DNA from: an uncultured Draconibacterium sp.
Lineage (GTDB): Bacteria; Bacteroidota; Bacteroidia; Bacteroidales; Prolixibacteraceae
Assembly (NCBI RefSeq): GCF_963675585.1
Contig: NZ_OY776414.1
Span: forward strand, 2,521,001 to 2,585,000
Direction of reading: 5' to 3'
Length of the DNA stretch: 64,000 nt
The position numbers and the translations under genes were made by a program. Below, one piece after another: positions 17,510 through 35,610 of this stretch. How positions within the stretch are numbered: the first letter of the stretch is position 1; each line of letters opens with the position of its first letter. The notes beneath the pieces were generated by a model. It worked only from the letters and a program-made list of their open reading frames with translations. It had not been told where the DNA came from and searched no databases.

Positions 17510-17518
17510 TTCTTTAAT

Positions 17519-18649: not shown

Positions 18650-18659
18650 AAGAACCGGG

Positions 18660-18723: not shown

Positions 18724-18777
18724 AATGCCATTTTATATTGGGTAATGGTTGTTGGTTATTCACACCTTTACTTTTAT

Positions 18778-18847: not shown

Positions 18848-18911
18848 ATGAACAAATAGTTAATTGTAAAAAAACTTGATTTTATGGTACCCTAAAATTC
18901 AACAATTCGGC

Positions 18912-18919
18912 TAATTTTG
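18912..18919 (+). promoter_or_regulatory. Candidate -7 element of tpiA
   Basis: TAATTTTG matches TAnnTTTG and lies 41 bases before the ATG at 18961. No clear TTTG occurs at the expected upstream position. Confidence 0.4.
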
Positions 18920-18960
18920 TGTGCGATTTTGAAATATCTAATAAACTAAAATTCAATAAT

Positions 18961-19719
18961 ATGAGACAAAAGATAGTTGCAGGAAACTGGAAACTAAACA
19001 CCACAGTTCAGGAAGGTGTTGAATTGGCAAAAGCAGTTGATACAATTGTTGCAGAACAAGGTGCTGAAGATGTAGTTGTAGTATTAGGAGTTCCTTTTAC
19101 TCACCTTACAAAAGTTGCAGAAACTGTTAACACTGAACGTATTGGTGTTGCATCTCAAAACTGTGCTGCTGAAGCAAAAGGTGCTTACACCGGTGAAGTA
19201 TCAGTAAGCATGATCAAATCTACAGGTGCTAAATATGTGATTTTAGGTCACTCAGAGCGTCGTGAATATTATGGTGAAACAAGCGAGACTTTAAACAAAA
19301 AATTAGCATTGGCACTGGAAGCCGGATTGACTCCAATTTACTGTTGTGGTGAAGCGTTAGATATTCGCGAAGCCGGTACTCACAACGAATTTGTAGTAAA
19401 TCAATTGGAAGAAACAGTATTCCAACTGTCTGCCGAAGATTTCAAAAAAATCGTTATTGCTTACGAACCAATCTGGGCAATCGGTACAGGAGTAACTGCA
19501 AGTTCGGCTCAGGCTCAAGACATGCATGCAAATCTTCGTGCTGCAATTACTGCTAAATTTGGTGAAGAAGTTGCTGAAGGAACTTCAATCCTTTACGGAG
19601 GAAGCTGTAATCCCAAAAATGCTAACGAACTATTTTCGAACAAAGATGTTGATGGTGGTTTAATTGGAGGCGCATCACTTAAAGCTGAAGATTTTATCGG
19701 AATCATTAATGCCTACTAA
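18961..19719 (+). CDS. tpiA: Triose-phosphate isomerase
   Basis: Start is the ATG at 18961 because the protein then opens [13 protein letters not shown], the universal N-terminus. An upstream in-frame GTG at 18919 falls on the promoter element. The 252-residue enzyme has Lys11, His97 in GHSERR and Glu169 in [10 protein letters not shown], the catalytic set that interconverts dihydroxyacetone phosphate and glyceraldehyde 3-phosphate. The phosphate loop is LYGGS and LIGGASL. It is monocistronic with its own promoter and strong terminator. Codon choice looks more biased than in neighbours, as for a highly expressed gene. Confidence 0.97.
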
Positions 19720-19750: not shown

Positions 19751-19800
19751 TAAAGCCACCTTTTTGTCGAACGACAAAAAGGTGGCTTTATTTTTTATTT
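19751..19800 (+). terminator. Strong Rho-independent terminator of tpiA
   Basis: TAAAGCCACCTTTTTGTCG and its exact reverse complement (19751-19790) form a near-perfect hairpin followed by a T-rich tract. It separates tpiA from the next gene cluster. Confidence 0.92.
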
Positions 19801-19887: not shown

Positions 19888-19902
19888 ACCGGATCATCCG
19901 GT
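19888..19902. promoter_or_regulatory. 15-base palindrome upstream of the sigma-factor cluster
   Basis: ACCGGAT-C-ATCCGGT is a perfect palindrome with seven-base arms, 50 bases before the first gene of the cluster. It is GC-rich in an AT-rich gap and has the form of an operator for a dimeric regulator. No T-run follows, so it is not a terminator. Confidence 0.45.
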
Positions 19903-19952
19903 AAGCGCTAATTTACAGAGATTTATTAACCAACTTCAAAAAAAACTGTACA

Positions 19953-20402
19953 ATGAAAAACCAATTTTTAATAGTATCATTTGTTTTAGCCCTCTTTATC
20001 TCAAGTTGTAATTCTTCTAAAAAGTCGGATGAAGTTGCATCCTATTCCTACCAGGAAGAAAAAGTTGAAATGAGTGCGGAATTAAAGGCCAAAATGCCGG
20101 AATGGGTAGAAGAAGGCAAAATTTGTTACGGTTTGGTAGTTCAGATAACGGAAGATAATGTTCCGGTAAAAGGGAAAGCCATTAAAGCCAAAGTGGTACA
20201 AATAGGTAAAGATGCCGTAAAAATGAAAGCTTTGGAAACGGTAAGTCTTGCTGAAGTAGAAGGATGCAGCAAAATGGGAATTTCGAAAGGTGAAACCTGG
20301 GATGAAAATGACGGAGACTTCTATCTAACCCGGGAAGAAGCTATTAACCGCTTAAAAGAAATGAAAGTGTATAAAAATTCGGGGAAAGTTACCGTTGACT
20401 AA
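19953..20402 (+). CDS. Small predicted lipoprotein of unknown function
   Basis: The 149-residue protein starts with a lipoprotein signal ending ISSC (Cys19). The mature part is rich in Lys and Glu, with a beta-rich segment NVPVKGKAIKAKVVQIGKD and two further cysteines (in KICYG and EGCSKM). It is the first gene after the palindrome and 18 bases before the sigma factor. The position suggests it belongs to the sigma-controlled envelope cluster. I do not recognise the family. Confidence 0.72.
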   Translation: MKNQFLIVSFVLALFISSCNSSKKSDEVASYSYQEEKVEMSAELKAKMPEWVEEGKICYGLVVQITEDNVPVKGKAIKAKVVQIGKDAVKMKALETVSLAEVEGCSKMGISKGETWDENDGDFYLTREEAINRLKEMKVYKNSGKVTVD

Positions 20403-20420
20403 TTATCTATTCCATTTCCA

Positions 20421-20990
20421 ATGACTGACAGTCAGATAATAAAGGAAATACAAAAAGACAATAACCTCGCTTTTCGGACATTAATTGAAAAATACAAAAA
20501 ACTTGTTTTTAATACGGCATTCCGACTTGTAAAAAACACGTCGGATGCCGAAGATATTTTTCAGGATGTGTTCCTGGAAATTTATAAATCGTGTGCGTAT
20601 ATTCAAAACGACGACGATCTTACCATGTGGATTTATAAAATTTCGTACAATAAATCCATTAGCTTTTTACGGAAAAAAAATCCGGCAAAAGCCAACAATT
20701 CCCCCGACGAAAAAAACACGACAGAACCAAGCAATAAACGATTCATTGAAAATGCCACTCCGGTAAAAAAGCTGGAAGAAAAAGAAAACATTGCCCACTT
20801 ATATCGTTTAATCGATCAACTTCCCGACAAACAGAAAACTGTTTTACTCTTACATAAATTTGAAGGATTCACACAAAAAGAGATTTGTGAAAAACTAGAC
20901 ATGTCCATCGACTCGGTTGAATCGCTTATTTACAGAGCTAAAAAGAACCTACGACAGAAGCTTACAGAATATTTAAAACTTAATTCCTGA
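20421..20990 (+). CDS. RNA polymerase sigma factor, ECF subfamily
   Basis: The 189-residue protein has region 2 (AFRTLIEKYKKLVFNTAFRLVKNTSDAEDIFQDVFLEIYKS) with the DAEDIFQDVF motif, and region 4 (LPDKQKTVLLLHKFEGFTQKEICEKLDMSIDSVESLIYRAKKNLR), a helix-turn-helix for -35 binding. The linker is Asn/Lys/Pro-rich. Two proteins with single N-terminal membrane anchors follow within 575 bases and are candidate regulators of it. It probably directs transcription of part or all of the downstream cluster. Confidence 0.92.
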   Translation: MTDSQIIKEIQKDNNLAFRTLIEKYKKLVFNTAFRLVKNTSDAEDIFQDVFLEIYKSCAYIQNDDDLTMWIYKISYNKSISFLRKKNPAKANNSPDEKNTTEPSNKRFIENATPVKKLEEKENIAHLYRLIDQLPDKQKTVLLLHKFEGFTQKEICEKLDMSIDSVESLIYRAKKNLRQKLTEYLKLNS

Positions 20991-20994
20991 AAAA

Positions 20995-21501
20995 ATGGAA
21001 AAGAAACAACAAACCATAAAATGGCTGAATATTTTTTTGCTGATAATCAACATATCGGCATTCGCCACTTTTTTGTATATGAACCAAATCCAAAAATCAG
21101 AAACTTCCGATGCTTTTAACTCGGATGAATATTTAAAAGAAGTTTTACAATTAACCGATAAACAATTCGAGGAGATTATGGAACTAGATCAAAAAGTATT
21201 TCGCAACTACCAGGTACTCATCGATATTCAATGCGAAACAAACTTTGAATTGGTTAAAGAGCTTTCGTCCGAAAATCCTTCCGAAGATGAATTAAAAAGA
21301 CTGACTGATAAAATTGGAAAATACCATACTGCGGTAAAACGACAAACTGTAACTCATTTTCAAAACATAAAAAGTGTTTGCGATGAAGATCAAAAACTTT
21401 TACTCGATAAACTATTGCTTGAAATGATGGAGGCGGGAGACCAGTGTGAATACTGCAACAAAGCGTCTTGCTCTCGAAGAAATCAGCTGGATAAAAAATA
21501 A
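20995..21501 (+). CDS. Membrane-anchored CnrX/Spy-like (LTxxQ) periplasmic protein, candidate metal or thiol sensor
   Basis: The 168-residue protein has one N-terminal helix (about 10-28) and a helical periplasmic domain. LQLTDKQFEEIMELDQ fits the LTxxQ-type repeat of Spy/CpxP and CnrX-like sensors. It has cysteines at 80, 129, 151, 154 and 159 and histidines at 111 and 121; the C-terminal QCEYCNKASC looks like a metal or redox site. It starts four bases after the sigma factor, the place where CnrX-like proteins sit in cnr-type loci. Sensing role and ligand are inference. Confidence 0.75.
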   Translation: MEKKQQTIKWLNIFLLIINISAFATFLYMNQIQKSETSDAFNSDEYLKEVLQLTDKQFEEIMELDQKVFRNYQVLIDIQCETNFELVKELSSENPSEDELKRLTDKIGKYHTAVKRQTVTHFQNIKSVCDEDQKLLLDKLLLEMMEAGDQCEYCNKASCSRRNQLDKK

Positions 21502-21563
21502 TTTTTAAAATAGTTTCTTTTTCGCGCCGGATTTAAATTTCATTTTCGTCTTATAAAATAAGA

Positions 21564-21935
21564 ATGAATTACAATAAGTTAGAAAATAATAGCTCGTCAC
21601 AACAATCTGACAACTTATCAGATAATAACATTTCAATGCAGGTTGAAGAAATTATGGATGTTTTGGATGTTGATTCTGTTATTCCTGATGGATTAGTTGA
21701 CCGGGTTATTGATCGCAAAGAGTCCTTTGCTGTAAAAAACCATTTCAATTTCGATTTTTCCAAGTACCTTCAAATTGCTGTTGTATTTGCAGCTGCAATT
21801 TCTATTGGAATTCTGATGGGAAAGAATGCCGATATCGCGTCATTTCGCAAAAATCAGGATAAAAAAGAGAAGGCTTTGATCGAATTACGGGAAAGGTATC
21901 ATCTAACTAATAACGACTCATTCGGAAGATTATAA
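21564..21935 (+). CDS. Single-pass membrane protein, possible anti-sigma-like partner
   Basis: The 123-residue protein has a polar Ser/Asn-rich N-terminus, a helical segment (MQVEEIMDVLDVDSVIPDGLVDRVIDR), one membrane helix (about 69-86) and a short charged C-terminal tail. The layout of a cytoplasmic helical region followed by one helix resembles small anti-sigma factors, and the gene is two genes after an ECF sigma factor. There is no zinc-finger HxxxCxxC. The assignment is a guess from position and topology. Confidence 0.65.
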   Translation: MNYNKLENNSSSQQSDNLSDNNISMQVEEIMDVLDVDSVIPDGLVDRVIDRKESFAVKNHFNFDFSKYLQIAVVFAAAISIGILMGKNADIASFRKNQDKKEKALIELRERYHLTNNDSFGRL

Positions 21936-21985
21936 TATACAAACCGATTGAACTCAACGTTCGATCCTATATTATTAAATACAAA

Positions 21986-23926
21986 ATGAAATTAAAAACC
22001 AAAGGTACCAACTGGCCGCGCCTTACTGTGCAGTGGGGAGTTATTCTGTTTATTCTGATTTTGGCTTTTATGCCGCAATTAACCAAAATTACTGCTCCCG
22101 ATTTCGAGGCATATTGTCCTTTCGGGGGATTGCAGGCCCTGGGAAGTTATCTTTTAAGTCAGGCACTTTCGTGCACCATGACAAGTGCACAAATAGTAAT
22201 GGGCATTTTACTTTTTGCAGGAGTGCTTTTGTTTAGCAAATTGTTCTGTTCATACATCTGTCCGATCGGAACTGTTAGTGAGTGGCTTGGACGATTAGGT
22301 GACAAATTAAAAATCAGGTTTACAATCTCAGGTATTTTCGATAAAATTTTACGTTCGTTAAAATACATTTTACTGTTTATAACGCTTTTTTACACGCTGC
22401 AATCAAACGAATTGTTTTGTAAAAAATTCGACCCGTATTTTGCTCTTGCATCGGGTTTTAATTCCGATGTTGTTGTGCTTTATGCCATTATTACAATTGT
22501 TCTGGTAGTTTTTGGATCGGTATTTATTCGCTTGTTCTGGTGTAAATATCTTTGCCCGCTTGGAGCTATCTCAAATATTTTCAAGTTCTCGCTGTTTTTT
22601 GTTGCAACACTTGCCATTTACCTCATTTTATTAAAATTTGGTGTTGAAATAAGTTATGTATGGCCTTTGGCTATTGCTTGTGCCGGAGGATATGCCATCG
22701 AACTGTTTGGACAAAAAAGTAAGTTTTTTCCACTGGCTAAAATTACCCGAAACACATCAAGTTGTATCGACTGCCAGTTGTGTTCAAAAAAATGCCCTCA
22801 GGCAATTGACGTAGCTTCGTTAAAAGTAGTAAAACACGTTGATTGTAATTTATGCGGCGATTGTTTGTTGGTTTGTCCTGAAAAAAATACGCTTACCATT
22901 AATAAACGTAAAGAATTGAAATGGCTTCCGATTGTTGCAACAGTTGTATTGGTTACCTTGGGTGTATTTGTAGGAAAATTGTGGGAAGTACCAACCATCG
23001 ACCTGAAATGGGGAGAACCGGAAGAAATTGAAAGCGCTGAAATTTTCACCCAGTCGGGACTAAAAAACATAAAATGTTACGGCAGCTCAATGGCTTTTGC
23101 CAATAAGATGAAAACCGTTGATGGCGTTTATGGAGTTGCAACCTATGTAAAACATAATCGCGTAAAAATGTATTACGATTCGGACCGGTTGAATGAAGAA
23201 AAGATACAGGAATTACTTTTTACACCTCAAAAGAAAGCTCTTAAAGTATTAGATAAGAATGTTGAAACGGTATACGGTATAAGTTTAAAGCTCAACAACT
23301 TTTTTGACAGTTACGATTTTAACTACTTAAGCGCAATGATCGCTTCCGAAACCAATGCGGTAGGGTTGATTTCTGAATTTGATTGTCCGGTTGTGGTAAA
23401 AATATATTTCCCTGAACCAATTGAAAATACCGAAGAATTATTCAACATAATCGAATCGAAGGAATATACATTTGAAACAACTCAGGGTCCACGCACACTG
23501 GAACTGGAATATGAAATATCGGGCAAACCGGAACTCTTTACCATTCCAAAAGCCGAATATGTAAACTCGTTGTTTACCGCTTTCGAACGAACTTTTAATT
23601 ACCGCGATGATTATACCGACGATGTGGTAAAAAGCTACACCCTACCATTGGGGAACAACAGTAAATTAAGAAACCGGCTTTCTTATCTGGTGAGTCACCT
23701 TTCGAATGACGATGGGGTGGTTGAGTTTAAAACAGAACTTGATTCAACTTATGAGGAAGTGGCTGATATTGTATATGTGGATACAATGACCAGTGTTTCT
23801 AAAATTGAAGAGGCTTTATTAAGCGATACGCTTGTGATTTCGTATTCGAACGGTAGAAAGGGAAAAGTGGAGAACATGTTCGATTTTTCGGAAGAAATAA
23901 AAACGAAGAACTCAAAAGAAAACTAA
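21986..23926 (+). CDS. Polyferredoxin membrane protein (NapH/NosR/CcoG-like) with degenerate HMA domain
   Basis: The 646-residue protein has about five or six helices with membrane-facing cysteine motifs CSYICP (Cys88, Cys92) and WCKYLCP (Cys186, Cys190). Two 4Fe-4S clusters follow at Cys260/263/266/270 and Cys287/290/293/297. This core is that of NapH, NosR and CcoG proteins, which pass electrons across the inner membrane. Residues about 353-415 resemble a heavy-metal-associated domain, but only the second Cys of CxxC remains (Cys364, with Asn361 in place of the first). A further 230 residues are unrecognised. The link to metal handling is strengthened by the sigma factor and sensor just upstream. 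Confidence 0.85.
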   Translation: MKLKTKGTNWPRLTVQWGVILFILILAFMPQLTKITAPDFEAYCPFGGLQALGSYLLSQALSCTMTSAQIVMGILLFAGVLLFSKLFCSYICPIGTVSEWLGRLGDKLKIRFTISGIFDKILRSLKYILLFITLFYTLQSNELFCKKFDPYFALASGFNSDVVVLYAIITIVLVVFGSVFIRLFWCKYLCPLGAISNIFKFSLFFVATLAIYLILLKFGVEISYVWPLAIACAGGYAIELFGQKSKFFPLAKITRNTSSCIDCQLCSKKCPQAIDVASLKVVKHVDCNLCGDCLLVCPEKNTLTINKRKELKWLPIVATVVLVTLGVFVGKLWEVPTIDLKWGEPEEIESAEIFTQSGLKNIKCYGSSMAFANKMKTVDGVYGVATYVKHNRVKMYYDSDRLNEEKIQELLFTPQKKALKVLDKNVETVYGISLKLNNFFDSYDFNYLSAMIASETNAVGLISEFDCPVVVKIYFPEPIENTEELFNIIESKEYTFETTQGPRTLELEYEISGKPELFTIPKAEYVNSLFTAFERTFNYRDDYTDDVVKSYTLPLGNNSKLRNRLSYLVSHLSNDDGVVEFKTELDSTYEEVADIVYVDTMTSVSKIEEALLSDTLVISYSNGRKGKVENMFDFSEEIKTKNSKEN

Positions 23927-23960
23927 AAATTGAAGTTTAAATAACCTATAAAAAGTGCGT

Positions 23961-26321
23961 ATGAAAAATTTTACTTTATTACTTATTCTATGCTTAATGG
24001 CGTTTCTGGGGAACGCTCAAGAAGCTACATTTAACTGGGAACAAAAAACTTTATGCGATGGAAACAAGCTCCAAAAGATGACAATCAACGAAGACTATGC
24101 TGCCATTGCAGGAAATGGAAATACATTTGTTACTTCGAGTAACGGAGGTGAAACATGGAACAGCCTAAACCTGATGAAGCCTTATTATAGTTTAACCGAC
24201 ATTAGCATAAAAAACAGCGTTGGTTATGTTGTTACTACCAGGGAAAAGCTTTATGATGCAGACCAAGATCCGCTGGTTAACGGAGTTTTATTAAAAACTA
24301 CCAACGAAGGTGCAACATGGTCGGTTATCGATACAATTGTTTTTGAACCATCTGGCGATCCAAGCCTTAGTCCAAGTGCTGAAAAATGTTTCGGTCTCGA
24401 TTACACCGCTGTTGCAACCGTTAACGATACTGTTGCCTACTGTGCTGCCCGCTGGTACGAATACGAACAGGGAGGGAAAGAAGATTACTCCGGTATTTTT
24501 AAAACATCGGATGGTGGTTCAACCTGGAATAACATTAGTGGCGACTTAGGTGGCACATCGATGAGTTGTATTGTTTTTAATGGAGAAACAGGTTTTACCG
24601 GTGGGAGTAAACAACTTTACAGAATTTCAACCGCCACCGATTCATTAGTAGATATTTATTCCCAACTTCCGTATACAACATCCTCAACATTTATATACGA
24701 TATTGATTTTGTAAGTGAATCTGAAGTTCTATTTACTACAACCAGAGATAGTATATTCACATCAAGTGATCTTGGTGAATCTTTCGATATAATAAAAGGA
24801 GCGAAAGGAGCAACCGATATTGCAAAAATCAATGATTCTACCATTGTATTAACTAGTTCAAAATACCTATATGTTTCAACCGATAACGGAAATAATTGGA
24901 ATAGTACATCATTACCTCTTACTCTTTGGGAAATTGGATGTGTAGCTAATGATTCTCTTTTTCTACTTGCAAAAGCCGCAATATATAAATTTGCAGTTTC
25001 TGATGTATTGAGTGGAAACTACGTTTACTCCACACAAAATGTGGGTGACAACAATCTTCAAAAAACATATGTTAACGGAGATAAAATAATAATTATTGGT
25101 AACGATTTAAATTTTCTTGCCAGTGATGATGCAGGAATATCGTGGAATCCACTATCAATCCCTGAAATTCCGTCATTGAATGAAATATATGATAACATAG
25201 ATTTTTATGGATTAAGCTCAGTAGGAGATGAAGCCTATGCCAGTGTTAATCGTCATTATCTCGTTGATTATCCATCTAGTTCAGACAAGAACGATATCTA
25301 TTGGTCAGGAGGAGTCTTTTATACGGATGATAATTGGGCGACTTATAAATCAGTTGATATTGCAAAACTTGGAAAGGCAAATGAAGACGATCCCTCTGCG
25401 AATCCTTATCATGAATTTTGTAACGGAGTAAATACCTCCGTTATTCATTACGTAGGGAATAACGTAGTGTTATTATGGGTAGATTGGTTCGACTATACCA
25501 CTGCCCCCAAAACGGAACACTCGAGGGTTTTTAAATCAGTTGACGCGGGTAAAAACTGGACACCTGTTACCGATGATTTAGGGACAAAATATGTAAAAGA
25601 AATTCAATCAAAAGGCGATACTGTTTACATAGTTGGCAAAGAAACATTATTGGTCTCCTACACTGCGGGAGTAGATAGTATTGAAAACACAACAGAATTT
25701 ACAAATCTTTATCCTAATCTGGATAAAGATGATAATGAAATGTACCTCTATACAATTACATTAGGTTCCGACAATGAGTTTTTCATTACAACATCTAATG
25801 ACAGCTGTTGGGTTACAAAAGATGGTGGTATAACTTTCGAAACGATTGGAAATATGGTTGGTGCTTATGATTTTTATAAATTCGATCATAATTCTTATAT
25901 AATGATGGGCACAAAAGGTTCAATTTTCACAAATGACGGTGGCGAAACATGGACCAGTTGCGATCCAGGAAAAGTAATATATGAAATTGGAGGAGTATAT
26001 AATGATAAATTTTATGCTCTTGCAACTGGTGATATCTTCACTAACGACATAGATAATTTTGAGCTAACAACAGCAATACCAACACTTTTATCCAAGGCCG
26101 AATTAAATGTTTTTTACGAGCCAACTGCTGTAAAACTTGTTTCAACTGAAGGTGACATTGAGCGCTGTGCAATGTATTCCATTACAGGAAAACTGGTTTC
26201 TTTAACAGAGCCAAATAGCCAAACTAAAAAGTTTAACACCAGCGAATTTCCAACCGGAATTTATATTGTAAACACCATTGTAAAAGGCAAACGTTATATA
26301 AACAAAATATCAATCAAATAA
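23961..26321 (+). CDS. Secreted Ycf48/BNR-type beta-propeller protein with T9SS type A sorting domain
   Basis: Start is the ATG at 23961, which gives a clean signal peptide ending GNAQ; an upstream GTG is disregarded. The 786-residue protein carries about ten sialidase/Ycf48-type repeats of form SxDGGxTW (SSNGGETWN, TSDGGSTWN, STDNGNNWN, KSVDAGKNWT, TNDGGETWT). The last 80 residues end in an Ig-like strand set with ITGKLVS, FPTGIYIVN and KRYINKISIK, the type A type IX secretion signal. It is expected on the cell surface or released. It lies 34 bases after the polyferredoxin gene. It may be an assembly or binding factor; enzymatic sialidase activity is not supported. Confidence 0.85.
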   Translation: MKNFTLLLILCLMAFLGNAQEATFNWEQKTLCDGNKLQKMTINEDYAAIAGNGNTFVTSSNGGETWNSLNLMKPYYSLTDISIKNSVGYVVTTREKLYDADQDPLVNGVLLKTTNEGATWSVIDTIVFEPSGDPSLSPSAEKCFGLDYTAVATVNDTVAYCAARWYEYEQGGKEDYSGIFKTSDGGSTWNNISGDLGGTSMSCIVFNGETGFTGGSKQLYRISTATDSLVDIYSQLPYTTSSTFIYDIDFVSESEVLFTTTRDSIFTSSDLGESFDIIKGAKGATDIAKINDSTIVLTSSKYLYVSTDNGNNWNSTSLPLTLWEIGCVANDSLFLLAKAAIYKFAVSDVLSGNYVYSTQNVGDNNLQKTYVNGDKIIIIGNDLNFLASDDAGISWNPLSIPEIPSLNEIYDNIDFYGLSSVGDEAYASVNRHYLVDYPSSSDKNDIYWSGGVFYTDDNWATYKSVDIAKLGKANEDDPSANPYHEFCNGVNTSVIHYVGNNVVLLWVDWFDYTTAPKTEHSRVFKSVDAGKNWTPVTDDLGTKYVKEIQSKGDTVYIVGKETLLVSYTAGVDSIENTTEFTNLYPNLDKDDNEMYLYTITLGSDNEFFITTSNDSCWVTKDGGITFETIGNMVGAYDFYKFDHNSYIMMGTKGSIFTNDGGETWTSCDPGKVIYEIGGVYNDKFYALATGDIFTNDIDNFELTTAIPTLLSKAELNVFYEPTAVKLVSTEGDIERCAMYSITGKLVSLTEPNSQTKKFNTSEFPTGIYIVNTIVKGKRYINKISIK

Positions 26322-26696
26322 TTTGGGTATCTTAAATGCGTCATCCCGGTCGTTGAAAAACCATTAGGGATGACGCATTAAAAATCAAAACAGAAGTTTA
26401 CCTAAAAATCTCAGGTTGGAGTAGCCAACACCCTATTTTCTTTTTTTAGTGAAGTGAATCGACACACTTGTGTAACCATTTAACTGATTAAATCGAGTCG
26501 ATATTTTTTCAGTACACAAGAGACGTGTAAAAACTTAACGATAATAACAGTCCAAAATCGATTTACTGAATATGAAAATTGGTGTACGATTTTTATTGGT
26601 TGTAACAAAATGGGAAAAGGGAATACACAAATAAATACTACTACAACTAAGTGAACTATTTTTGCTTTACACATAGGAATAAATTTGATAAACACT
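26322..26696. other. 375-base gap with hairpin and candidate promoter
   Basis: This gap splits the sigma/polyferredoxin half of the cluster from the ABC/TonB half. It contains the inverted repeat at 26335-26379 and a TATTTTTG (26657-26664) that fits the -7 consensus, 33 bases before the ABC ATPase start. Apparent small frames on the minus strand are hydrophobic by chance and are not supported. Confidence 0.5.
26335..26379. repeat. Perfect 13-bp inverted repeat
   Basis: AATGCGTCATCCC (26335-26347) is the exact reverse complement of GGGATGACGCATT (26367-26379), with a 19-base loop. A-rich rather than T-rich sequence follows on both exits, so it is an unusual terminator if it is one. Confidence 0.7.
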
Positions 26697-27587
26697 ATGA
26701 CTAACAATGCAATAGAATGCAACAACCTCACCCATTACTATGGGAAAAAGCTGGTGTACGAAAACCTTAACATTCACGTTAAGGAAGGTAGTATACTGGG
26801 TTTGCTGGGAAAAAACGGAGCCGGTAAAACAACTACCATAAACATCCTGAACGGATTTTTGCAACCACGCAGTGGCGAGTGTTTAATTTATGGCGAAAAT
26901 ACCCAGCATTTAACACCTCAAAATAAAGCGCGTATTGGATTTCTTATTGAAGGCCACGTTCAATATGCTTTTATGAATATTCACCAAATCGAGAAGTTTT
27001 ACTCTGGCTTTTACGAAAGGTGGAACAATGAACCCTACTGGGAACTCATGTCGAAATTAAAAGTAACACCCACACAAAAAATATCAACCATGTCGTGCGG
27101 TCAGCGATCGCAAGTGGCGCTTGGTTTAATACTGGCCCAGGATCCTGACTTGCTGATCCTCGACGATTTTTCGATGGGACTCGACCCTGGTTACCGCCGC
27201 TTGTTTATCGACTATTTGCGCGAATATGCCAAGGCTAAAAATAAAACCATTTTTACCACGTCCCATATCATCCAGGATATGGAACGCCTGATAGACGATG
27301 TACTGATTATGGATTACAACCGGGTGCTTACTCAACGCAATGTGCACGAGTTTATGCGCGAGTTCAAACAATTTTATCTCGAGGTTGAAAATCCAGCCAT
27401 TGATCTGTCGAAAGAAGACTTTGTTGCCAACTTCGAAAAAGTAAACAACAAAGTTGAAATCTATACCTACGAATCAGACGAGATGGTTTTAAGTTTTCTC
27501 AACAATAATGGAATTGCTTTTAAAAATTTCCAAAAAGTTGAGATGGGATTAGAAGATGCTTTTATTGGCTTAACAGGAAAATATTAA
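26697..27587 (+). CDS. ABC transporter ATPase (ABC-2 type exporter)
   Basis: Start is placed at the ATG at 26697; a TTG 12 bases upstream is possible. The 296-residue protein has Walker A LGKNGAGKTTT (37-47), a Walker B in LLILDDFSMGLD and an H-loop in TTSHI. The signature loop reads MSCGQRSQVALGLI instead of LSGGQ, a noticeable change (Cys for Gly) that keeps the central Gly-Gln. The C-terminal 80 residues resemble the regulatory tail of CcmA/NosF-type ATPases. It works with the ABC-2 permease downstream. Confidence 0.88.
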   Translation: MTNNAIECNNLTHYYGKKLVYENLNIHVKEGSILGLLGKNGAGKTTTINILNGFLQPRSGECLIYGENTQHLTPQNKARIGFLIEGHVQYAFMNIHQIEKFYSGFYERWNNEPYWELMSKLKVTPTQKISTMSCGQRSQVALGLILAQDPDLLILDDFSMGLDPGYRRLFIDYLREYAKAKNKTIFTTSHIIQDMERLIDDVLIMDYNRVLTQRNVHEFMREFKQFYLEVENPAIDLSKEDFVANFEKVNNKVEIYTYESDEMVLSFLNNNGIAFKNFQKVEMGLEDAFIGLTGKY

Positions 27588-27591
27588 AAAA

Positions 27592-27657
27592 GTCGGAAGT
27601 CGTGAGACGGAAAACAGAAGCAAAACTTCTTTCTCCCATCTTCGGGCTTCGGTCTTA
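27592..27657. repeat. 7-base-period array that reverses orientation
   Basis: Between the ATPase and permease genes the heptads read GTCGGAA, GTCGTGA, GACGGAA, AACAGAA, GCAAAAC and then TTCTTTC, TCCCATC, TTCGGGC, TTCGGTC. The first half is the complement of the second, so the array can fold on itself around GAAGCAAAACTTC. It keeps one 7-base phase throughout. Confidence 0.75.
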
Positions 27658-27672
27658 CAACAATAAAAAATT

Positions 27673-28341
27673 ATGTGGAAATCAGTTATATACAAAGAAT
27701 GGATAAAAACCAGATGGTTTATTATTCTTTATGCCGTTTTAGGATTGGCTGTTGTTGGTTATATATTTTTAAATGTGCAACGCGATTTTAAATTTAACGA
27801 AGCCAACAATTATTGGTACACCATACTATTTATGGGTGTACGGTATTTTGGATCACTTAAATTTGTTCCCTTATTTGGAGCTCTGGCAATTTCGGTTGCA
27901 CAGTATTTTCCCGAAACTGTGAGCAAAAGAATAAAATTAACATTTCATCTACCGTTAAACGAAAACCGTGTTTTGTTGATGATGATGTTGTATGGAACAG
28001 TTGGTCTTGTGGTCAGTTATTTTATTCAGTTGGCCCTGTTTTATGCTTTGAGTGTCGTTTTCTTTCCAGCGGACATTATTTTTCCCGCGCTGGCATCAAT
28101 AACTCCCTGGTTTTTATCGGGTTTAGCGTGTTATTACCTGGCTGCGTTAATCGTTTTAGAACCCGTTTGGAAATATCGTGTGGCCTACCTTGTGGTGGCA
28201 AGTACATTCGTGCCGCTCTACCTTGAATCGGCCCCAACAGGAGCTTATGCTCCGGCTAATTTAGCTCTGGCTTTATTGGTCATCATCATCAGTATTTCAT
28301 TGTTATTTTCAGGATATCGATTTAGAAAAGGAGAAATGTAA
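27673..28341 (+). CDS. ABC-2 type transporter permease
   Basis: The 222-residue protein has six predicted helices: about 16-34, 52-75, 98-122, 128-150, 155-172 and 195-215. It starts with the amphipathic MWKSVIYKEWIKTRWF that precedes helix 1 in ABC-2 permeases such as NosY and CcmB-like proteins. It is small for the family, so a homodimer is expected with the upstream ATPase. The gene ends one base before the next start. Substrate unknown. Confidence 0.8.
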   Translation: MWKSVIYKEWIKTRWFIILYAVLGLAVVGYIFLNVQRDFKFNEANNYWYTILFMGVRYFGSLKFVPLFGALAISVAQYFPETVSKRIKLTFHLPLNENRVLLMMMLYGTVGLVVSYFIQLALFYALSVVFFPADIIFPALASITPWFLSGLACYYLAALIVLEPVWKYRVAYLVVASTFVPLYLESAPTGAYAPANLALALLVIIISISLLFSGYRFRKGEM

Positions 28342-28342
28342 A

Positions 28343-29578
28343 ATGGTAAAACTTAGCAGATATTTTTTAGTAATTATAGCGATCATTGGATTTGGTATTG
28401 CACTTCCGAAAATCTATTGGGTAGCTTTTGCAGAACCTATTCGTGCTCCTTATGTTCAATACAGTTGTGTCGACCACGATTTTATGTTAATACGTTCAGG
28501 GGATGAAGTAATTCGTACCAATCCAAAAGGCGATACTTTTACACGCGAAGAGTACGAAAACAAACTTCCGTTGATGTTCACCCGCCAGTTACTTATGAAC
28601 AACACAATGCCCGATTCAATCGATGGCGTAGAAATGGACATGCACGATATTAGCAACAACCGGTCAACTTTCAGAGTTCGGCCGAGAGAGATTCATGCAC
28701 CACTGCCTACCCTATATCCTCTATTCGAATCGCAATCGGGACGCGCTAACCTGGAAATGCCAAAAGACTTTTTCAGAATCACGTGGCGCATGGAATTCAT
28801 CGATGCCGAATCAAATAAAGTGGATGAAGAAAAAAGCCGGATGTTTTCGGCCGTACTTTACAAACGAGGATTTAAATTTCCTGCCAAATCGATAAACGGG
28901 CTACCAACTACCCGCAAATCATGCGACGAAGGTTATTTGGTGGTTGACTCAGCAGATCAGTTGTTTCACATAAAACTTGTAAAAGGCTTACCTTATGTCG
29001 AAAAAACAGAACTTCCTGAAGGGTTAAAATTCAGAAGCATCAATTGTGTCGACTTTAAAGATAAATTTTACTATGCTTATTTATTTTCGACCGATAATAA
29101 TGTGTATGTTTTAACACAATACGATTATCAATTGGTGAAGTTAGATGTGGAAAATATCAATCCAGAAGAAAACGAAATAAAAATCTATGGCGATCTTTTT
29201 AACTATCTAATAACCAGCACAGGTGACGGTGAAATTACTTCCCAGGTTCTGGACAAGGATTACAATAAGGTAAATGAATACAAAGAAACCTGGCCGGTTC
29301 GCGACGAACGCACCGAAGGAAAAGTGGCGCAGTTTCTGTTTCCCGCACAACTAAAAATGACAAATTCCAATTCCAGTTTTATTCGTTTCTTTTTTGAAGG
29401 CAATAAATCGTATAACTGGATTGTTTTGAGCCTGCTACTAATGGCTATTCAGTTTTTAATCATAAGAAAAAGAAAAGAAAATATTAAAAATCAACTTGTT
29501 GATTTAGGGATTATAGCAATAACAGGTATATTTGGGTTTATTGCGGTCAATTTTTTCCCCAATAAATTCTTTAAATAA
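28343..29578 (+). CDS. DUF4857-like membrane-anchored protein
   Basis: The 411-residue protein has one N-terminal helix (about 7-25), a large predicted periplasmic domain (about 30-350) and two C-terminal helices (about 352-370 and 383-403). It matches the general layout of the DUF4857 family found next to ABC-2 permeases in Bacteroidota. It follows the permease by one base, so it is very likely a third component of the exporter complex. The periplasmic region has few cysteines (three visible). Function unknown. Confidence 0.7.
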   Translation: MVKLSRYFLVIIAIIGFGIALPKIYWVAFAEPIRAPYVQYSCVDHDFMLIRSGDEVIRTNPKGDTFTREEYENKLPLMFTRQLLMNNTMPDSIDGVEMDMHDISNNRSTFRVRPREIHAPLPTLYPLFESQSGRANLEMPKDFFRITWRMEFIDAESNKVDEEKSRMFSAVLYKRGFKFPAKSINGLPTTRKSCDEGYLVVDSADQLFHIKLVKGLPYVEKTELPEGLKFRSINCVDFKDKFYYAYLFSTDNNVYVLTQYDYQLVKLDVENINPEENEIKIYGDLFNYLITSTGDGEITSQVLDKDYNKVNEYKETWPVRDERTEGKVAQFLFPAQLKMTNSNSSFIRFFFEGNKSYNWIVLSLLLMAIQFLIIRKRKENIKNQLVDLGIIAITGIFGFIAVNFFPNKFFK

Positions 29579-29605
29579 ACGAACAAAGGTCAAATCAACT
29601 GCCCA

Positions 29606-32563
29606 ATGGTAAAAACAGTACTATTATTTTTTGTATTGCTCTCAACTTTTAGTGCGGCTTACAGTCAATATTCTGTAACAGGAAAAGTGCTGAATGCCGA
29701 TAAAAAAACTCCGGTTGAATTCGCAACCATTGTAACTTCGGATAATAACACCTGGGCAATAACCGATTATAACGGCGATTTTACCATTAAGTTGCCGGCA
29801 GGCGAAAATTCTATGTTTATTTCGTGCTTGGGCTATGTTAAAACACCCATTACCGTAAACATTAAAAACCAATCTCTGTCGAACCAGATTTTTTACATTA
29901 AAGAAAATAACTTGTCGTTGGATGAAGTGGTGGTTACCGCACAGAAAAAAGATGAAATGGCCACCTCCTACTCCATCGATAGAAATGCTTTAACGCATGC
30001 TCAAACAAAAGACATTTCTGATTTAATGTCGCAGCTGCCGGGTGGACAAACAAGCTACGAATCGAGTGCGACACAAGAAAAATACATTGTTTTGCGTTCA
30101 GACTCCAGATCGGAAATGGATAATCCATCTTTTGGAACTGCCATTGAGGTGGATGGAGTTCGTTTAACTTCCAATTCGAATTTTAGCAGTTCTGCAATAG
30201 ATGGAATTGATGGCGTTGATATCCGTAACATTGCGGTAAATAATATCGAGTCGGTTGAAATTGTAACCGGTTTGCCTTCGGTTGAAAATGGCGACCTTAC
30301 AGCAGGTTTGATGAAAATCCACACCCGCAAAGGAAAGTCTCCTCTCGAAATTGAAGTGAGTACCAAACCCAATACAAAAAGTTATTCGGCTACCAAAGGT
30401 TTTGACTTAGGTGGCAAAAAAGGACTAATTAACACCAGTCTGGAACACACCCAATCGATTAAAGACCGTGTTTCGCCTTACACAACTTACACCCGAAATA
30501 ATTTGTCGTTAACCTACCGGAATACCTTTGGGCCTAAAAGCAAACCCATCGATTTAACCTATGGAATAACCGGCAACCTGGGAGGTTTTAATTCTGAAAA
30601 TGATCCCGACAGATTTGTTGGAACTTATGAAAAACAGAAAGATTACGCTGTACGTTCCAATCTGAATATAAAATGGCTACTAAATGAACCTTATTTAAAC
30701 GGACTCGATTTTACCGCATCGGTAAATTATGCCGATAAAAAAAGCGAAGAAAAAAAGAACGAAGACAGTTCTGCCTCATTATCAGCCAAACATTCAACCG
30801 ATGAAGGGTACTTTATTGCCCAGGATTACGACGAAAATCCGGATGCTGAAATTATTCTCATTCCTCCCGGAAAGTGGTATGAAATTATGTACGATGATGA
30901 TAAACCGGTGACCTACTCGGCCAACCTAAAAGCCAACTGGATGCAGAAAAAGGGAGAATTCATAAACCGAATCAAGGCTGGTGGCGAAGTTTCATTCGCT
31001 GGAAACTATGGTAAAGGGATTTACTATGACGACATGAGATATGCTCCCGACTGGAGAGAATACCGCTACGACGAACAACCTTTTATTAATACCTACTCGT
31101 TTTATGCCGAAGATAAAGTAATATTTCCGGTGTTTGGGAACCAGATGGATATACAGGCCGGTATTCGATCTGATATCACCTCGATTAAAGGCAACGAATA
31201 CGGAGTTGTTCAGGGCTGGTCGCCGCGTATTAATGCGCAATACATGTTATACGCCAACAAAAGCACATTGCTAAAATATGCCAAAGTTCATGCCGGTTGG
31301 GGCGATGCGGTTAAACTTCCTTCTGCTAATATTTTATATCCGCGTCCGAGATACAGTGACCAGTTAGCTTTTGCTTCAGTGTCGGATGACGCAGGTAAAG
31401 CTTTTTATGCTTATTACACTGTGCCGATTACAACTGTTTACAATACCGATTTAATGTGGCAACGAAGAAGGAAACTGGAAGTAGGTACTGATTTCAGGAT
31501 TGGTAACACACGGGTTTCTTTAACGGCATTCAGAGATAAAACCTTCCATCCTTATCGTCAAGCAGGAAATTATGTTCCAATAGAATACAAATTAACGAAT
31601 CAAAGCGATTTGGAAGAGTGTCAAATTCCATTGGAAAACCAGGTTTATGCAATTGACCAGACAACAGGTATTGTAACTGTTTCAGATGCCACAGGAAGCT
31701 ATGAAAGTGAGTCACTGAGTTATACGGATAAAAATAAATTTCACCAAAACTATTATTACGCGAATGGCTCATCTGTAACGAGAAAAGGTTTGGAGTGGAT
31801 TGTTGATTTCGGAAAAATAAAAGCTCTAAAAACATCGGTAAGATTCGACGGGAGCTATTATTCTTACAAAGGAATAAATGAAGTTATTGAAGAGGGAATG
31901 TCTACTTCTGCAAATTCGTCAGACGGCACCCCATATAAATATGTTGGATTTTACGTTGGTAACGATGCGGTAAGTAACGGTTCCGAAACCCAGAAGCTAC
32001 GGGCAAATGTAATGGTTACTACGCACATTCCGGCAATACGTATGATTGTATCCTGCCGTTTCGAAAGTTGTTTGTATGATTATTCGCGTCAGTTAAGTGA
32101 ATATTCAAATGGAATCCGGAGCTATGTACTGGATGACAAAGATTCCTATATTCCATCTTCATCGGGCCAAGGTATTTACGATGGGAATAATTATGTAGCA
32201 ACCTATCCAGAATATTATAAGTCCATACACGATATGGAAACTGAAATTCCGTTTTTAGAGAAATTTTTATGGGCCAAAGAGAATGATCCGGAATTATATA
32301 ACGACCTTTCGAAACTGGTAAAAAAGTCGAATCGAGATTATTATTTTCAACCTGAAAAATACAGCCCCTATTTCGCGGCAAACTTAAATGTCACCAAAGA
32401 AATTGGCGATCGACTATCCCTTACTTTTAAAGCTACAAATTTCTTTAACAACACCGGAATAATAACGAACAGTAAAACCGGTAACGAGGAATCGTTGTAT
32501 ATGAATGGCTCAGGTAAAATTGCTAAGTTTTACTATGGACTATCGATGCGGGTTAAATTATAA
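29606..32563 (+). CDS. TonB-dependent outer-membrane receptor with N-terminal carboxypeptidase-like domain
   Basis: The 985-residue protein has a signal peptide (1-20), a carboxypeptidase-regulatory-like domain (about 22-105, VTGKVLNADKKTPVEFATIV), then DEVVVTAQKKDE (106-117) leading into the plug, with a PGG in SQLPGGQTSYE. The plug contains NNIESVEIVTGLPSVENGDLTAGLMKI. The rest is a beta-barrel ending in aromatic/basic MRVKL. No SusD partner follows; instead there is a DUF4876 lipoprotein, so a glycan system is unlikely. It probably imports a metal complex or cofactor. Confidence 0.9.
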   Translation: MVKTVLLFFVLLSTFSAAYSQYSVTGKVLNADKKTPVEFATIVTSDNNTWAITDYNGDFTIKLPAGENSMFISCLGYVKTPITVNIKNQSLSNQIFYIKENNLSLDEVVVTAQKKDEMATSYSIDRNALTHAQTKDISDLMSQLPGGQTSYESSATQEKYIVLRSDSRSEMDNPSFGTAIEVDGVRLTSNSNFSSSAIDGIDGVDIRNIAVNNIESVEIVTGLPSVENGDLTAGLMKIHTRKGKSPLEIEVSTKPNTKSYSATKGFDLGGKKGLINTSLEHTQSIKDRVSPYTTYTRNNLSLTYRNTFGPKSKPIDLTYGITGNLGGFNSENDPDRFVGTYEKQKDYAVRSNLNIKWLLNEPYLNGLDFTASVNYADKKSEEKKNEDSSASLSAKHSTDEGYFIAQDYDENPDAEIILIPPGKWYEIMYDDDKPVTYSANLKANWMQKKGEFINRIKAGGEVSFAGNYGKGIYYDDMRYAPDWREYRYDEQPFINTYSFYAEDKVIFPVFGNQMDIQAGIRSDITSIKGNEYGVVQGWSPRINAQYMLYANKSTLLKYAKVHAGWGDAVKLPSANILYPRPRYSDQLAFASVSDDAGKAFYAYYTVPITTVYNTDLMWQRRRKLEVGTDFRIGNTRVSLTAFRDKTFHPYRQAGNYVPIEYKLTNQSDLEECQIPLENQVYAIDQTTGIVTVSDATGSYESESLSYTDKNKFHQNYYYANGSSVTRKGLEWIVDFGKIKALKTSVRFDGSYYSYKGINEVIEEGMSTSANSSDGTPYKYVGFYVGNDAVSNGSETQKLRANVMVTTHIPAIRMIVSCRFESCLYDYSRQLSEYSNGIRSYVLDDKDSYIPSSSGQGIYDGNNYVATYPEYYKSIHDMETEIPFLEKFLWAKENDPELYNDLSKLVKKSNRDYYFQPEKYSPYFAANLNVTKEIGDRLSLTFKATNFFNNTGIITNSKTGNEESLYMNGSGKIAKFYYGLSMRVKL

Positions 32564-32574
32564 AAAATTAGGCT

Positions 32575-33909
32575 ATGAGTATAAAAATTAAATTTTACCT
32601 GTTAGTGTTAATCGGATTTGTGATTGTGGGATTACAATCATGCAAAAACGACTTTGATAATTTATACCAAACACATACAGTCACCATCCAATTAAACTAT
32701 CCTGATGATTTTGAGGTAGCAGAAAATGCAACCATTACTCTGATTAACTATAACAGCAACATTACATATACAGACATTACCAATGCCAACGGAATAGCTA
32801 CTTTTGAAATTCCTTATGGCATTTACAATGCAGCCGTTTCTGAGCTACGAACAGTATCGGGAACTGCCTATATTTTTACTGGAAATACAAGCCTTACAGT
32901 AACTGAGACTGATAAAAATTCGGATGTTACAATAATAAATCTATCTGCTTCAAAAGCCAACAATATTATTATTAAAGAATTGTACAATGGAGGTTGTCAA
33001 AAGGACGATGGCTCAGGAACTTTTTATCGCGGACAATATGTTATACTTTATAATAATTCAGTAGTAACTACCTCTTTAGATAATTTCTGCTTTGGGGCAG
33101 CATATCCTTATAATTCGCAAGGATCCAATTATTTTTATTCAAATGGTTCTCTTTCATACGAAACAGAGGGCTGGATTCCGGCAGCACAGGGAATTTGGTA
33201 TTTTCCGGAAGGCATAAGTTTAGAGCCTGGCGAACAGATTGTTATAGCTTTAAACTGCGCAATTAACAACACGTTAACGTATAGCCAGTCCATCAACTTT
33301 GCCAATGCCAATTATTATACGCTTTACGATATTGATGTATATTCTAACGAAAGTCACTACCCAGCACCATCATCCTTAATACCAACATCTCACTATCTTT
33401 CAGCTGTAAAATACGGAATTGGTAATGCATGGTCTTGTAGTTATACATCACCGGCATTCTACATTTTTGCGACACAAGAAGTAACTCCTTCTGAGTTTGC
33501 CACTAATGTTGAAAACTATGGGAATTATGGTGGATCTGCAACGCAGGTTTACGCTAAGGTTCCCATCGACTGGGTTATTGACGGTATTGAAGTCTTTAAG
33601 CAAGGAGATGATAATCAACAAAGATTGACCTCAGCCATTGACGCTGGATATGTTTATTTAAACAATAAAAATGGTTATACATTGTACAGGAACGTAAACC
33701 AGGAAGCCACCGAAGCACTGGCTGAAAATGCAGGAAAATTGATTTACAATTATTCAGGCGGCACAACTGATTTAGTTGATGGCAGCACCGATCCTTCGGG
33801 CATTGATGCAGAAGCTTCAATTGTCAACGGAGCACGAATTATTTACAGCGACACCAACAGTTCGACAAACGATTTCCACCAACGAAAAAAAGCTTCTTTA
33901 CGCGATTAA
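32575..33909 (+). CDS. DUF4876-like surface lipoprotein
   Basis: The 444-residue protein has a lipoprotein signal ending LQSC (Cys23). Residues about 33-115 form a beta-sandwich like the carboxypeptidase regulatory domain (YDTDITNANGIATFEIPYG region). The larger C-terminal part (about 125-440) starts IIIKELYNGGCQKDDGSGTFYRGQYVILYNN, resembling a lamin-tail-like fold in DUF4876 proteins. It starts 11 bases after the TonB receptor and probably acts as its surface-exposed substrate-binding partner, as SusD or HmuY-type lipoproteins do; that is inference. Confidence 0.75.
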   Translation: MSIKIKFYLLVLIGFVIVGLQSCKNDFDNLYQTHTVTIQLNYPDDFEVAENATITLINYNSNITYTDITNANGIATFEIPYGIYNAAVSELRTVSGTAYIFTGNTSLTVTETDKNSDVTIINLSASKANNIIIKELYNGGCQKDDGSGTFYRGQYVILYNNSVVTTSLDNFCFGAAYPYNSQGSNYFYSNGSLSYETEGWIPAAQGIWYFPEGISLEPGEQIVIALNCAINNTLTYSQSINFANANYYTLYDIDVYSNESHYPAPSSLIPTSHYLSAVKYGIGNAWSCSYTSPAFYIFATQEVTPSEFATNVENYGNYGGSATQVYAKVPIDWVIDGIEVFKQGDDNQQRLTSAIDAGYVYLNNKNGYTLYRNVNQEATEALAENAGKLIYNYSGGTTDLVDGSTDPSGIDAEASIVNGARIIYSDTNSSTNDFHQRKKASLRD

Positions 33910-33929
33910 ACTGTAAGCACTACGAAACT

Positions 33930-35525
33930 ATGATTAGAAAGATATATATAACGTGGGTTTTATTAATTGGAGGAGTTTTATTCGCGCCCGGACTGATGGC
34001 TCAGGAACAAATTAACTGGACTGATTTCGACTATGTAAAAAACTCAAACAATTGGCTAAGCAGTGAAAATGCCGCCGGACTCGATAAATTAAGTACCGAA
34101 AAAATTTCGTTTATTTCGGCATATTTCAACAAAGAAAATGGTGATTTTATTAACTACTACCAGTCGGATAACAGCTACTCTTTTGGTGGATTAACTGAAT
34201 CGTTTTATCGCTTAAATAAAGTTGTTTTTTACGGCAAAATGGAATACTCCAATTTCTCGGGTGAAAACATGGGCGGATCAACTGTTCTCGATCCTTATTT
34301 TACTCCCTTCGACATAGTAGAATTTGCCGATAGTACTGCCGGAAAGAAAAAAATGGAAACCTATCATTTAACGGGTGCATTGAGTTTTCCATTGTCGGAG
34401 AAACTAATAATGGGTATAAAAACAAACTACAAAACCATTAGCTATTACAAAATAAAAGACCTCAGGCATACAAACGATATTATGAACCTGGAAACCACTG
34501 CAGGTTTAACTTATTCTCTTAACAGGATTGCCGATTTTGGAGTAAACTATTATTTCAGAAAAAGTACTGAAAATACCAGATACCAGGCAGAAGGAAATAC
34601 CGATCAGCAATTCAATTCTCTAATTAGCTATGGTTCGTTTTTCGGCACACAGGAAAATTTTGGAACGGAAGGGATTACCGGAGATGAAGGGAATAATCCT
34701 TTTGTTGATTTTATACACGGAGCAACGTTGCAAATTGATTTATTCCCTGAAAGTAACTTTCACTTTTTTAACGAACTGGGGATAAAATGGAGAAACGGGT
34801 ATTTCGGGCAAAAATCGTCGGTTGATATTCAGTACACCGAACACGAAGCAAAAAGTTTTCACTACAAAGGAACTTTGTCCATAGAAAGGCTTCAATCCGT
34901 GCATCAATTTTCAGTTTGTTTCGACAGGGAAGATTTACTCAACTACGAGAATGCATATAAAGAATCGACCACTGAAGGAGGAAATACCACCGTGGTTTAT
35001 TATGGCAAAAACCAGGTATTAGACCGCGTTTTATCCAAAGCCTCATTCCAATATACAGGATACATTAATGTTACCGATAACAATCCGGAATGGGTGGCTA
35101 ATGCCGGCGTATCTGTTTGGCGTAGAGATCAAATGGCTACATTTTATCCCTATTACCGGAAACAGGATGTAAAACAGGTACTGGCAACTGCCTCGATCAA
35201 AAAAAATATAATACGAAAAAATAATATGTACAGCCTTTCTTTTGGAGGCTCGTATGGCTCAGGTAGCGGAATTGAGAAAGAAGATGGCCAGTTTGCTTCG
35301 ACATCAGAAAACTTTGCAACACTTGACCAATATTTATTTCGGGAATATGAATTCTTAACTGCGGCCCGTGCCAGCGGAAATATACAATTCCGTTATACCA
35401 AGGCATTTGCGGGAAACTACAGAATTTATGGTGGAGTACGGTACAGTTATACCAAAGCTTTTGATGTTTCGTACAACGGCGACTCTTTAGGGAATATCGC
35501 ACTAAATGTGGGATATATCTTCTAA
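33930..35525 (+). CDS. Outer-membrane beta-barrel protein, DUF6850-like
   Basis: The 531-residue protein has a signal peptide ending LMAQ (about 1-24). Its body is a run of alternating aromatic strands (FFNKENGDFINYYQ, YRLNKVVFYGKMEYS, LTYSLNRIADFGVNYYF) ending IALNVGYIF, a typical barrel C-terminus. It resembles the DUF6850 barrel family. It is last in the TonB/DUF4876 set, 20 bases after the lipoprotein gene, followed by a terminator. It may be an efflux or uptake channel or a receptor accessory. Confidence 0.78.
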   Translation: MIRKIYITWVLLIGGVLFAPGLMAQEQINWTDFDYVKNSNNWLSSENAAGLDKLSTEKISFISAYFNKENGDFINYYQSDNSYSFGGLTESFYRLNKVVFYGKMEYSNFSGENMGGSTVLDPYFTPFDIVEFADSTAGKKKMETYHLTGALSFPLSEKLIMGIKTNYKTISYYKIKDLRHTNDIMNLETTAGLTYSLNRIADFGVNYYFRKSTENTRYQAEGNTDQQFNSLISYGSFFGTQENFGTEGITGDEGNNPFVDFIHGATLQIDLFPESNFHFFNELGIKWRNGYFGQKSSVDIQYTEHEAKSFHYKGTLSIERLQSVHQFSVCFDREDLLNYENAYKESTTEGGNTTVVYYGKNQVLDRVLSKASFQYTGYINVTDNNPEWVANAGVSVWRRDQMATFYPYYRKQDVKQVLATASIKKNIIRKNNMYSLSFGGSYGSGSGIEKEDGQFASTSENFATLDQYLFREYEFLTAARASGNIQFRYTKAFAGNYRIYGGVRYSYTKAFDVSYNGDSLGNIALNVGYIF

Positions 35526-35572: not shown

Positions 35573-35610
35573 AAACAGCTGCTCATCAATTTGGGTGGCT
35601 GTTTTTTTTT
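35573..35610 (+). terminator. Rho-independent terminator at the end of the TonB cluster
   Basis: AAACAGC (35573-35579) pairs with GCTGTTT (35598-35604) and is followed by a run of nine T residues. The T-run merges with the next promoter. Confidence 0.75.

Follow-up and report, generated by a model that had tools for sequence, protein, structure and literature searches.

Here, we describe a cluster of twelve genes, all open and on the plus strand (positions 19953-35525; Table 1), in the window, a 64,000-nucleotide stretch of the genome of an uncultured Draconibacterium sp. (contig NZ_OY776414.1, positions 2,521,001 to 2,585,000). With a probability of roughly one half, these genes form a TonB-dependent system of metal piracy that works like the Xus system of Bacteroides, takes up most likely iron, and uses a polyferredoxin (polyFd) with an HMA-like tail as its electron module. 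An earlier note on this DNA, made from the letters alone, had counted eleven genes; its order and strand hold, and the count rises to twelve with the division of the exporter of the ATP-binding cassette (ABC) type into two genes.

In the mechanism we propose, a propeller exported by the type IX secretion system (T9SS), a DUF4876 lipoprotein, a TonB-dependent receptor and a DUF6850 protein would capture a metal complex at the surface and import it, as their families and places in the cluster suggest. The metal would be released in the periplasm and handled by polyFd, whose electrons may cross the membrane from cytosolic [4Fe-4S] clusters to three HMA-like domains in a predicted periplasmic tail, and these domains may reduce the metal, bind it or both. 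The ABC/DUF4857 unit could return the stripped carrier or move a periplasmic component, and a CnrYXH-like module of sigma factor, sensor and anti-sigma factor would control the whole.

Gene association kept across phyla indicates that the two halves of the cluster are one system (labels beginning with G denote genomes of relatives, those with L their loci). A polyFd search of 101 relatives gave 21 strong matches (E < 1e-100) in 19 genomes, and DUF4876 is present in 11 of the 20 strong-match stretches outside the window. Among those without it, L039, L040, L045, L047 and L050 have a contig border near polyFd or its partners, although a propeller and a receptor are still visible in L040 and L045; the stretches of L052-L055 hold no DUF4876, L054 and L055 being second copies in their genomes with a TonB-receptor match that is partial only. 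Of the 148 genomes in a phylum sample, six have DUF4857, with polyFd in the same cluster every time (6/6), and because this association reaches Ignavibacteriota and Calditrichota, we take the halves to belong together. Gene order, proposed as a check in the earlier note, is thus kept beyond close relatives and across phyla. The suggestion of two separate units split at 26322-26696 fares less well: the gap is real, but the association is conserved, and the gap is more likely the place of a missing cassette.

Wider sampling qualifies this linkage on the polyFd side. The best 80 of 513 polyFd loci in the named genome collection were examined, with a range covering Bacteroidales, Rikenellaceae, Melioribacteraceae/Ignavibacteriota, Calditrichota and KSB1 (the cluster is present, for example, in the cultured relative Maribellus maritimus, L070). 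The trio of TonB receptor, DUF4876 and DUF6850 is found in 38 of these 80 loci, and at least one of DUF4876, DUF6850 and DUF4857 in 49; the 31 with none include some short contigs, some loci with S46 or M16 peptidases and some of a separate polyFd group. Among 247 genomes sampled from the order, DUF4876 lies within 20 kb of 29 of 35 DUF4857 matches, and DUF4876 or DUF4857 within 20 kb of 10 of 30 polyFd matches, leaving 20 without. Furthermore, in 20 fetched DUF4876 loci with no polyFd nearby, the TonB-receptor gene is always adjacent (20/20) and DUF6850 is adjacent in 19, the last locus ending at a contig border. The counts from this sample and the fetched loci therefore place DUF4857 nearly always with the receptor trio, and polyFd also elsewhere.

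Close relatives, the window being of the same genus as G157, carry different receptor cassettes on a conserved inner-membrane chassis, as sequence comparison shows for two pairs. Between G183 and G150, protein identity is 98-100% from the flank up to and including polyFd and 98% for prmA; it drops to 45% for the propeller, 59% for the permease, 67% for DUF4857 and 25-30% for the trio. Likewise, the window and G154 share 90-95% identity from lip1 to polyFd, 99% in the ATPase, 94% in the permease and 92% in DUF4857, against 42% for the propeller and 26-30% for the trio. In the DNA, a 95% match to G154 extends as far as 26388 and resumes at 26706. The interval holds the receptor cassette in G154 and 317 bases without counterpart in the window, whose own trio follows DUF4857; at that place G154 continues directly with prmA. 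Because the G154 cassette sits there, the gap at 26322-26696 is likely a site of cassette loss or exchange. Exchange, in a direction that is inferred, would explain the differing cassettes. A hairpin behind the propeller gene, kept in G154 and present as a single copy in the genome, may act as a termination or processing signal.

Beyond these genes, the partners of polyFd vary. The 80 polyFd loci include an ABC permease in 16, DUF4857 in 13, an M16 peptidase in 20 and an S46 peptidase in 34; an ABC permease coincides with M16 in three loci and with S46 in none. In a receptor tree of 67 rows (quick method, support by the Shimodaira-Hasegawa-like approximate likelihood ratio test only), the receptors of the window, G183 and L073 fall in a 12-row set (support 100), nine of whose rows come from peptidase-type (M16/S46) clusters and three from ABC-type ones, and the six other same-genus rows fall in the ABC-type part. 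These data bear on a Fus-like metalloprotein piracy, in which an iron protein or peptide would be imported, M16 and S46 would digest it in the periplasm, and polyFd would handle the freed iron or cluster. Its appeal lies in the frequency of peptidase genes, in the company that the window's receptor keeps, and in the genome's own two S46 genes and M16 frames (two long, of 998 and 941 amino acids, and one short, of 438), since in the window the peptidases would have to act from other genome sites. None of the cluster's 12 proteins has a peptidase or TonB match in Pfam, S46 never accompanies the ABC permease in the 80 loci, and both peptidases are widespread in the phylum, which counts against this reading; we regard it as rather unlikely. 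The Fus operon of Pectobacterium, for ferredoxin uptake, pairs a receptor with an M16 protease, a TonB homologue and a putative ABC transporter (PMC7593965). Fus (PMC7593965, PMC6071955) resembles the cluster in its TonB receptor and ABC transporter, and the M16 of some relatives, and differs in the M16 and TonB genes that the window's cluster lacks; the available parts of these two sources name no polyferredoxin, DUF4876 or DUF4857 gene.

A second set of partners involves PepSY-TM proteins, which are present in nine of the 20 DUF4876 loci without polyFd (one of them assigned through Pfam, PF16357, E 4.9e-15). Near the 35 DUF4857 matches of the order sample there is PepSY-TM in 11 cases, polyFd in 7, both in none and neither in 17. 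Two independent Melioribacter-type loci have both, namely L059 and L058, the latter sharing its contig with L141. The DUF4857 tree (35 rows; L058 and L059 counted as polyFd, L152, L161 and L162 with neither label) has the proteins linked to polyFd on one side and those linked to PepSY on the other. PepSY-type clusters also encode small lipoprotein-like proteins with the motif CTHxCKHxGxKxFxMG (L154:3720-4316, L165:14520-15179), which weakly resemble DUF4920 according to a model built in this analysis. In the window, the 12 proteins have no PepSY match in Pfam, and PF16357, the only PepSY model sought genome-wide, gave 0 matches at E 1e-5.

Iron is suggested as the metal by analogy with published expression data. 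Data from PMC10434189 give a 36.7-128-fold rise in iron depletion for Bacteroides thetaiotaomicron BT3625-33, whose products are DUF4857, a hypothetical protein, an ABC ATPase, two PepSY-TM proteins, a fimbrillin, two DUF4876 proteins and a TonB receptor, and a 20.8-214.5-fold rise for Porphyromonas gingivalis PG1019-22 (DUF4876/TonB); both were likened to the cluster by product lists, not by sequence. By that list, BT3625-33 and the cluster both unite DUF4857, ABC, DUF4876 and TonB-receptor genes, a gene set that BT3625-33 shares with most of L151-L159 and L165-L166; the window's cluster has the full set of this operon family, ABC ATPase and permease included. The same product list differs from the cluster in its PepSY-TM pair and fimbrillin-like protein, and it shows no polyferredoxin and no sigma/sensor module (PMC10434189). 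A haemin-availability table lists the P. gingivalis DUF4876 gene at -5.42 and HmuY at -6.11, values quoted without the column heads (PMC10470040). PG_1019 also shifts together with HmuY when an RNA-binding protein is mutated (PMC12119571), and by 4-5.5-fold in work on PG_0686 (PMC10101095), and is therefore not a pure iron readout.

The part that sets the cluster apart is polyFd itself. Its model has seven membrane helices, Fer4_5 CxxxCP motifs and cytosolic 2[4Fe-4S] motifs, followed by a tail of ~310 residues, spanning 333-646, with three HMA-like domains that is predicted to be periplasmic. The domains show the beta-alpha-beta-beta-alpha-beta fold, and both fold and topology are supported by the model and the charge pattern. 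A CxxC metal site of the HMA kind is absent: in the first domain CxxS takes its place, and its residues C364 and S367 do not vary among 51 sequences. This domain matches metal-binding domains of copper ATPases in a PDB profile search (7xuk, E 4.6e-5; 1p6t, 9e-5), a resemblance that would fit copper acquisition, in which the receptor imports a copper chelate, polyFd reduces Cu(II) to Cu(I), the HMA-like domains relay Cu(I) and the Cys-rich CnrX-like protein senses copper. The five invariant cysteines of the latter point the same way, and pairs of TonB receptor and PepSY_TM protein can serve copper, as reported in part of PMC12914433. Yet the second Cys of the HMA motif is missing in 51/51 sequences and the related operons of B. 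thetaiotaomicron and P. gingivalis are strongly iron-regulated, so that copper seems distinctly improbable.

PolyFd resembles NapH/MauN/NosR-type membrane proteins in its Fer4_5 CxxxCP and 2[4Fe-4S] motifs, and differs from them in its seven modelled helices and its triple-HMA-like tail. The earlier note had inferred metal or cofactor uptake combined with redox assembly without NosZ, and the corresponding alternative is a NosR/NosFY-like maturation, with polyFd giving electrons and the ABC/DUF4857 pair a sulfur or metal unit to a periplasmic metal site while the receptor imports metal. Similarity to the NapH/MauN model TIGR02163 (E 4.7e-14) and the ABC-2-like pair in the cluster speak for this, but the scores lie far below the cut-offs (52.5 bits against 213.05, and for NosR 35.5 against 1000), the ABC permease is found in 0/34 S46 loci, and no client enzyme is recognised among the 12 proteins. 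Moreover, NosF is not among the best 25 of 188 NCBIfam matches of the ATPase, and no specific evidence for NosZ-style assembly emerged, which fits less well because the peptidases or PepSY-TM proteins of relatives better suit uptake and release of bound metal. We therefore consider maturation very doubtful; the uptake and redox parts of the original idea are supported by the iron-starvation data on the related operon and by the HMA-like tail, and the assembly part is not.

Homologues of polyFd without a receptor trio nearby (L078, L085, L088-L091, L102, L124) suggest that the family has a second role. In G151 and G179, of the same genus, polyFd is lost except for a decaying C-terminal remnant (L066:10438-10737, L065:10141-10398), and the propeller, receptor trio and ABC genes remain. 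A gene for a resistance-nodulation-division (RND) pump lies upstream of lip1 in L080 (1939-5079) and of polyFd in L095 (6330-9491), both scoring best with multidrug RND models though always below cut-off, and L076 and L081 hold genes similar in size and place.

Among known systems, the preferred reading of iron piracy takes as its model XusABC (Bacteroides BT2063-65), which according to PMC13142918 combines, like the cluster, a TonB receptor, a propeller-fold surface protein and an inner-membrane electron-transfer protein; iron piracy would be shared as a proposal only. XusC is described there as the reductase of the piracy system, and the PepSY-TM proteins FoxB and FpvG as periplasmic ferric-siderophore reductases in part of PMC10866019. 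Xus differs by a lipoprotein of the DUF4374 family and by a PepSY protein (PMC13142918); none of the cluster's 12 proteins matches DUF4374 in Pfam at E values up to 0.1. It has instead the T9SS propeller, DUF4876, DUF6850, the polyferredoxin with HMA-like tail, the ABC/DUF4857 unit and a sigma module.

This sigma module shares with cnrYXH of Cupriavidus metallidurans (part of PMC4803752) an ECF (extracytoplasmic function) sigma gene beside genes for a membrane-anchored periplasmic sensor-like protein and a one-helix anti-sigma-like protein, and differs from it in conservation based on Cys and in an operon that would serve uptake, not efflux. The layout rests on the sigma factor, the five-Cys protein and the putative anti-sigma factor, and the CnrX-type arrangement proposed earlier is supported as a layout; homology of sensor and anti-sigma factor to their cnrYXH counterparts is weakly supported. 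The five cysteines reported for the CnrX/Spy-like protein are real: C80, C129, C151, C154 and C159 are invariant in an alignment of 13 sequences, window included, and the protein has a weak PDB profile match to 5ihf (E 0.0013). The next gene, described before as a small one-helix protein, does encode a single helix and is probably a degenerate anti-sigma factor. Its homologues in L049, L072, L074 and L079 keep an N-terminal HxxxCxxC that is missing in the window; zf-HC2 appears sub-threshold in L072 (E 0.0063) and L079 (0.1) and was not found in the L049 and L074 homologues. In the 80 polyFd loci, the CnrX-like and anti-sigma-like genes are always accompanied by the sigma factor and lip1 (9/9); other relatives, such as L097, have a sigma/FecR pair instead, together with a receptor that bears an STN domain. 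In relatives with the module, TGGTTTTT-N10-GCGTC lies 54-125 bases upstream of lip1 (L072:7134, L074:192, L079:7795), with one further match in 21 loci and 0.05 expected in single-base shuffles, a count that is partly circular because the motif was derived from those three loci. It is a possible ECF sigma promoter and was not found in the window.

The identities of most genes in Table 1 agree with the earlier note: Pfam bears out the ECF sigma factor, polyferredoxin, T9SS Ycf48-like propeller, ABC ATPase and DUF4857 protein as well as the TonB receptor, DUF4876 and DUF6850 (a putative barrel in the earlier note's reading), and the tpiA terminator, palindrome and end terminator are all present. 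The exact palindrome is absent from all 170 loci compared, and is thus not a conserved element. Three small proteins (lip1, sensor-like, anti-sigma-like) and the permease have no Pfam family above cut-off, the permease's best match being at E 0.037. In lip1, the lipobox C19 and C105 are invariant and C58 is kept in 15 of 16 aligned sequences; in the DUF4876 lipoprotein, C23 is invariant among 28. The DUF4857 protein is anchored by one N-terminal and two C-terminal hydrophobic helices (AlphaFold2 model, predicted local distance difference test 90.9). Upstream, tpiA (in the 16964-19719 stretch of the window) directly precedes the cluster in 12/12 other same-genus loci, and two more genes before it, one read as putative DoxX-like, are kept in 11/12, the remaining locus being a contig end.

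Table 1. Features of the cluster and its borders, in window positions.
Feature	Position	Strand	Evidence or remark
Terminator 3' of tpiA	19751-19790		
15-base palindrome	19888-19902		
lip1, small lipoprotein	19953..20402	+	no Pfam match
ECF sigma factor	20421..20990	+	Pfam Sigma70_r2 5.8e-13, Sigma70_r4_2 4.2e-17
Putative sensor, CnrX/Spy-like, membrane-anchored	20995..21501	+	one hydrophobic helix
Putative anti-sigma factor	21564..21935	+	one hydrophobic helix; alignment of 13
polyFd, NapH-like polyferredoxin	21986..23926	+	Pfam Fer4_5 repeats
Ycf48/sortilin-type beta-propeller, T9SS-secreted	23955..26321	+	PSII_BNR 1.1e-13, Por_Secre_tail 1.7e-6; PDB Ycf48 2.7e-6
Hairpin 3' of propeller gene	26335..26379	+	z -4.4
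Segment without G154 counterpart	26389..26705		blastn against 12 loci of relatives
ABC transporter ATP-binding protein	frame 26685-27587, in-frame ATG 26697	+	ABC_tran 1.4e-21
ABC-2-like permease	27673..28341	+	named by place and size; 5 hydrophobic stretches
DUF4857 protein	28343..29578	+	PF16149 2.5e-86
TonB-dependent receptor	29606..32563	+	Plug 6.4e-9, CarbopepD_reg_2 1.9e-17
DUF4876 lipoprotein	32575..33909	+	PF16215 3.6e-21
DUF6850 protein	33930..35525	+	PF21012 5.6e-43
End terminator	35573-35604		

More broadly, and tentatively, since we hold it at clearly less than even odds, polyFd with its triple-HMA-like tail could represent a new class of periplasmic metal reductase or acceptor for TonB-dependent piracy in Bacteroidota and neighbouring phyla, acting alongside PepSY-TM proteins or replacing them and serving exchangeable receptor cassettes, for small chelates or metalloproteins, on a conserved chassis. 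G150/G183 and G154/window, pairs of close relatives that keep one chassis but differ in receptor, offer natural experiments on what the receptor decides. Four little-characterised families (DUF4857, DUF4876, DUF6850 and the polyferredoxin-HMA proteins) would be joined in one metal-uptake system across several phyla, and the cluster suggests a second route, besides PepSY-TM proteins, by which electrons may enter the periplasm to free bound metal.

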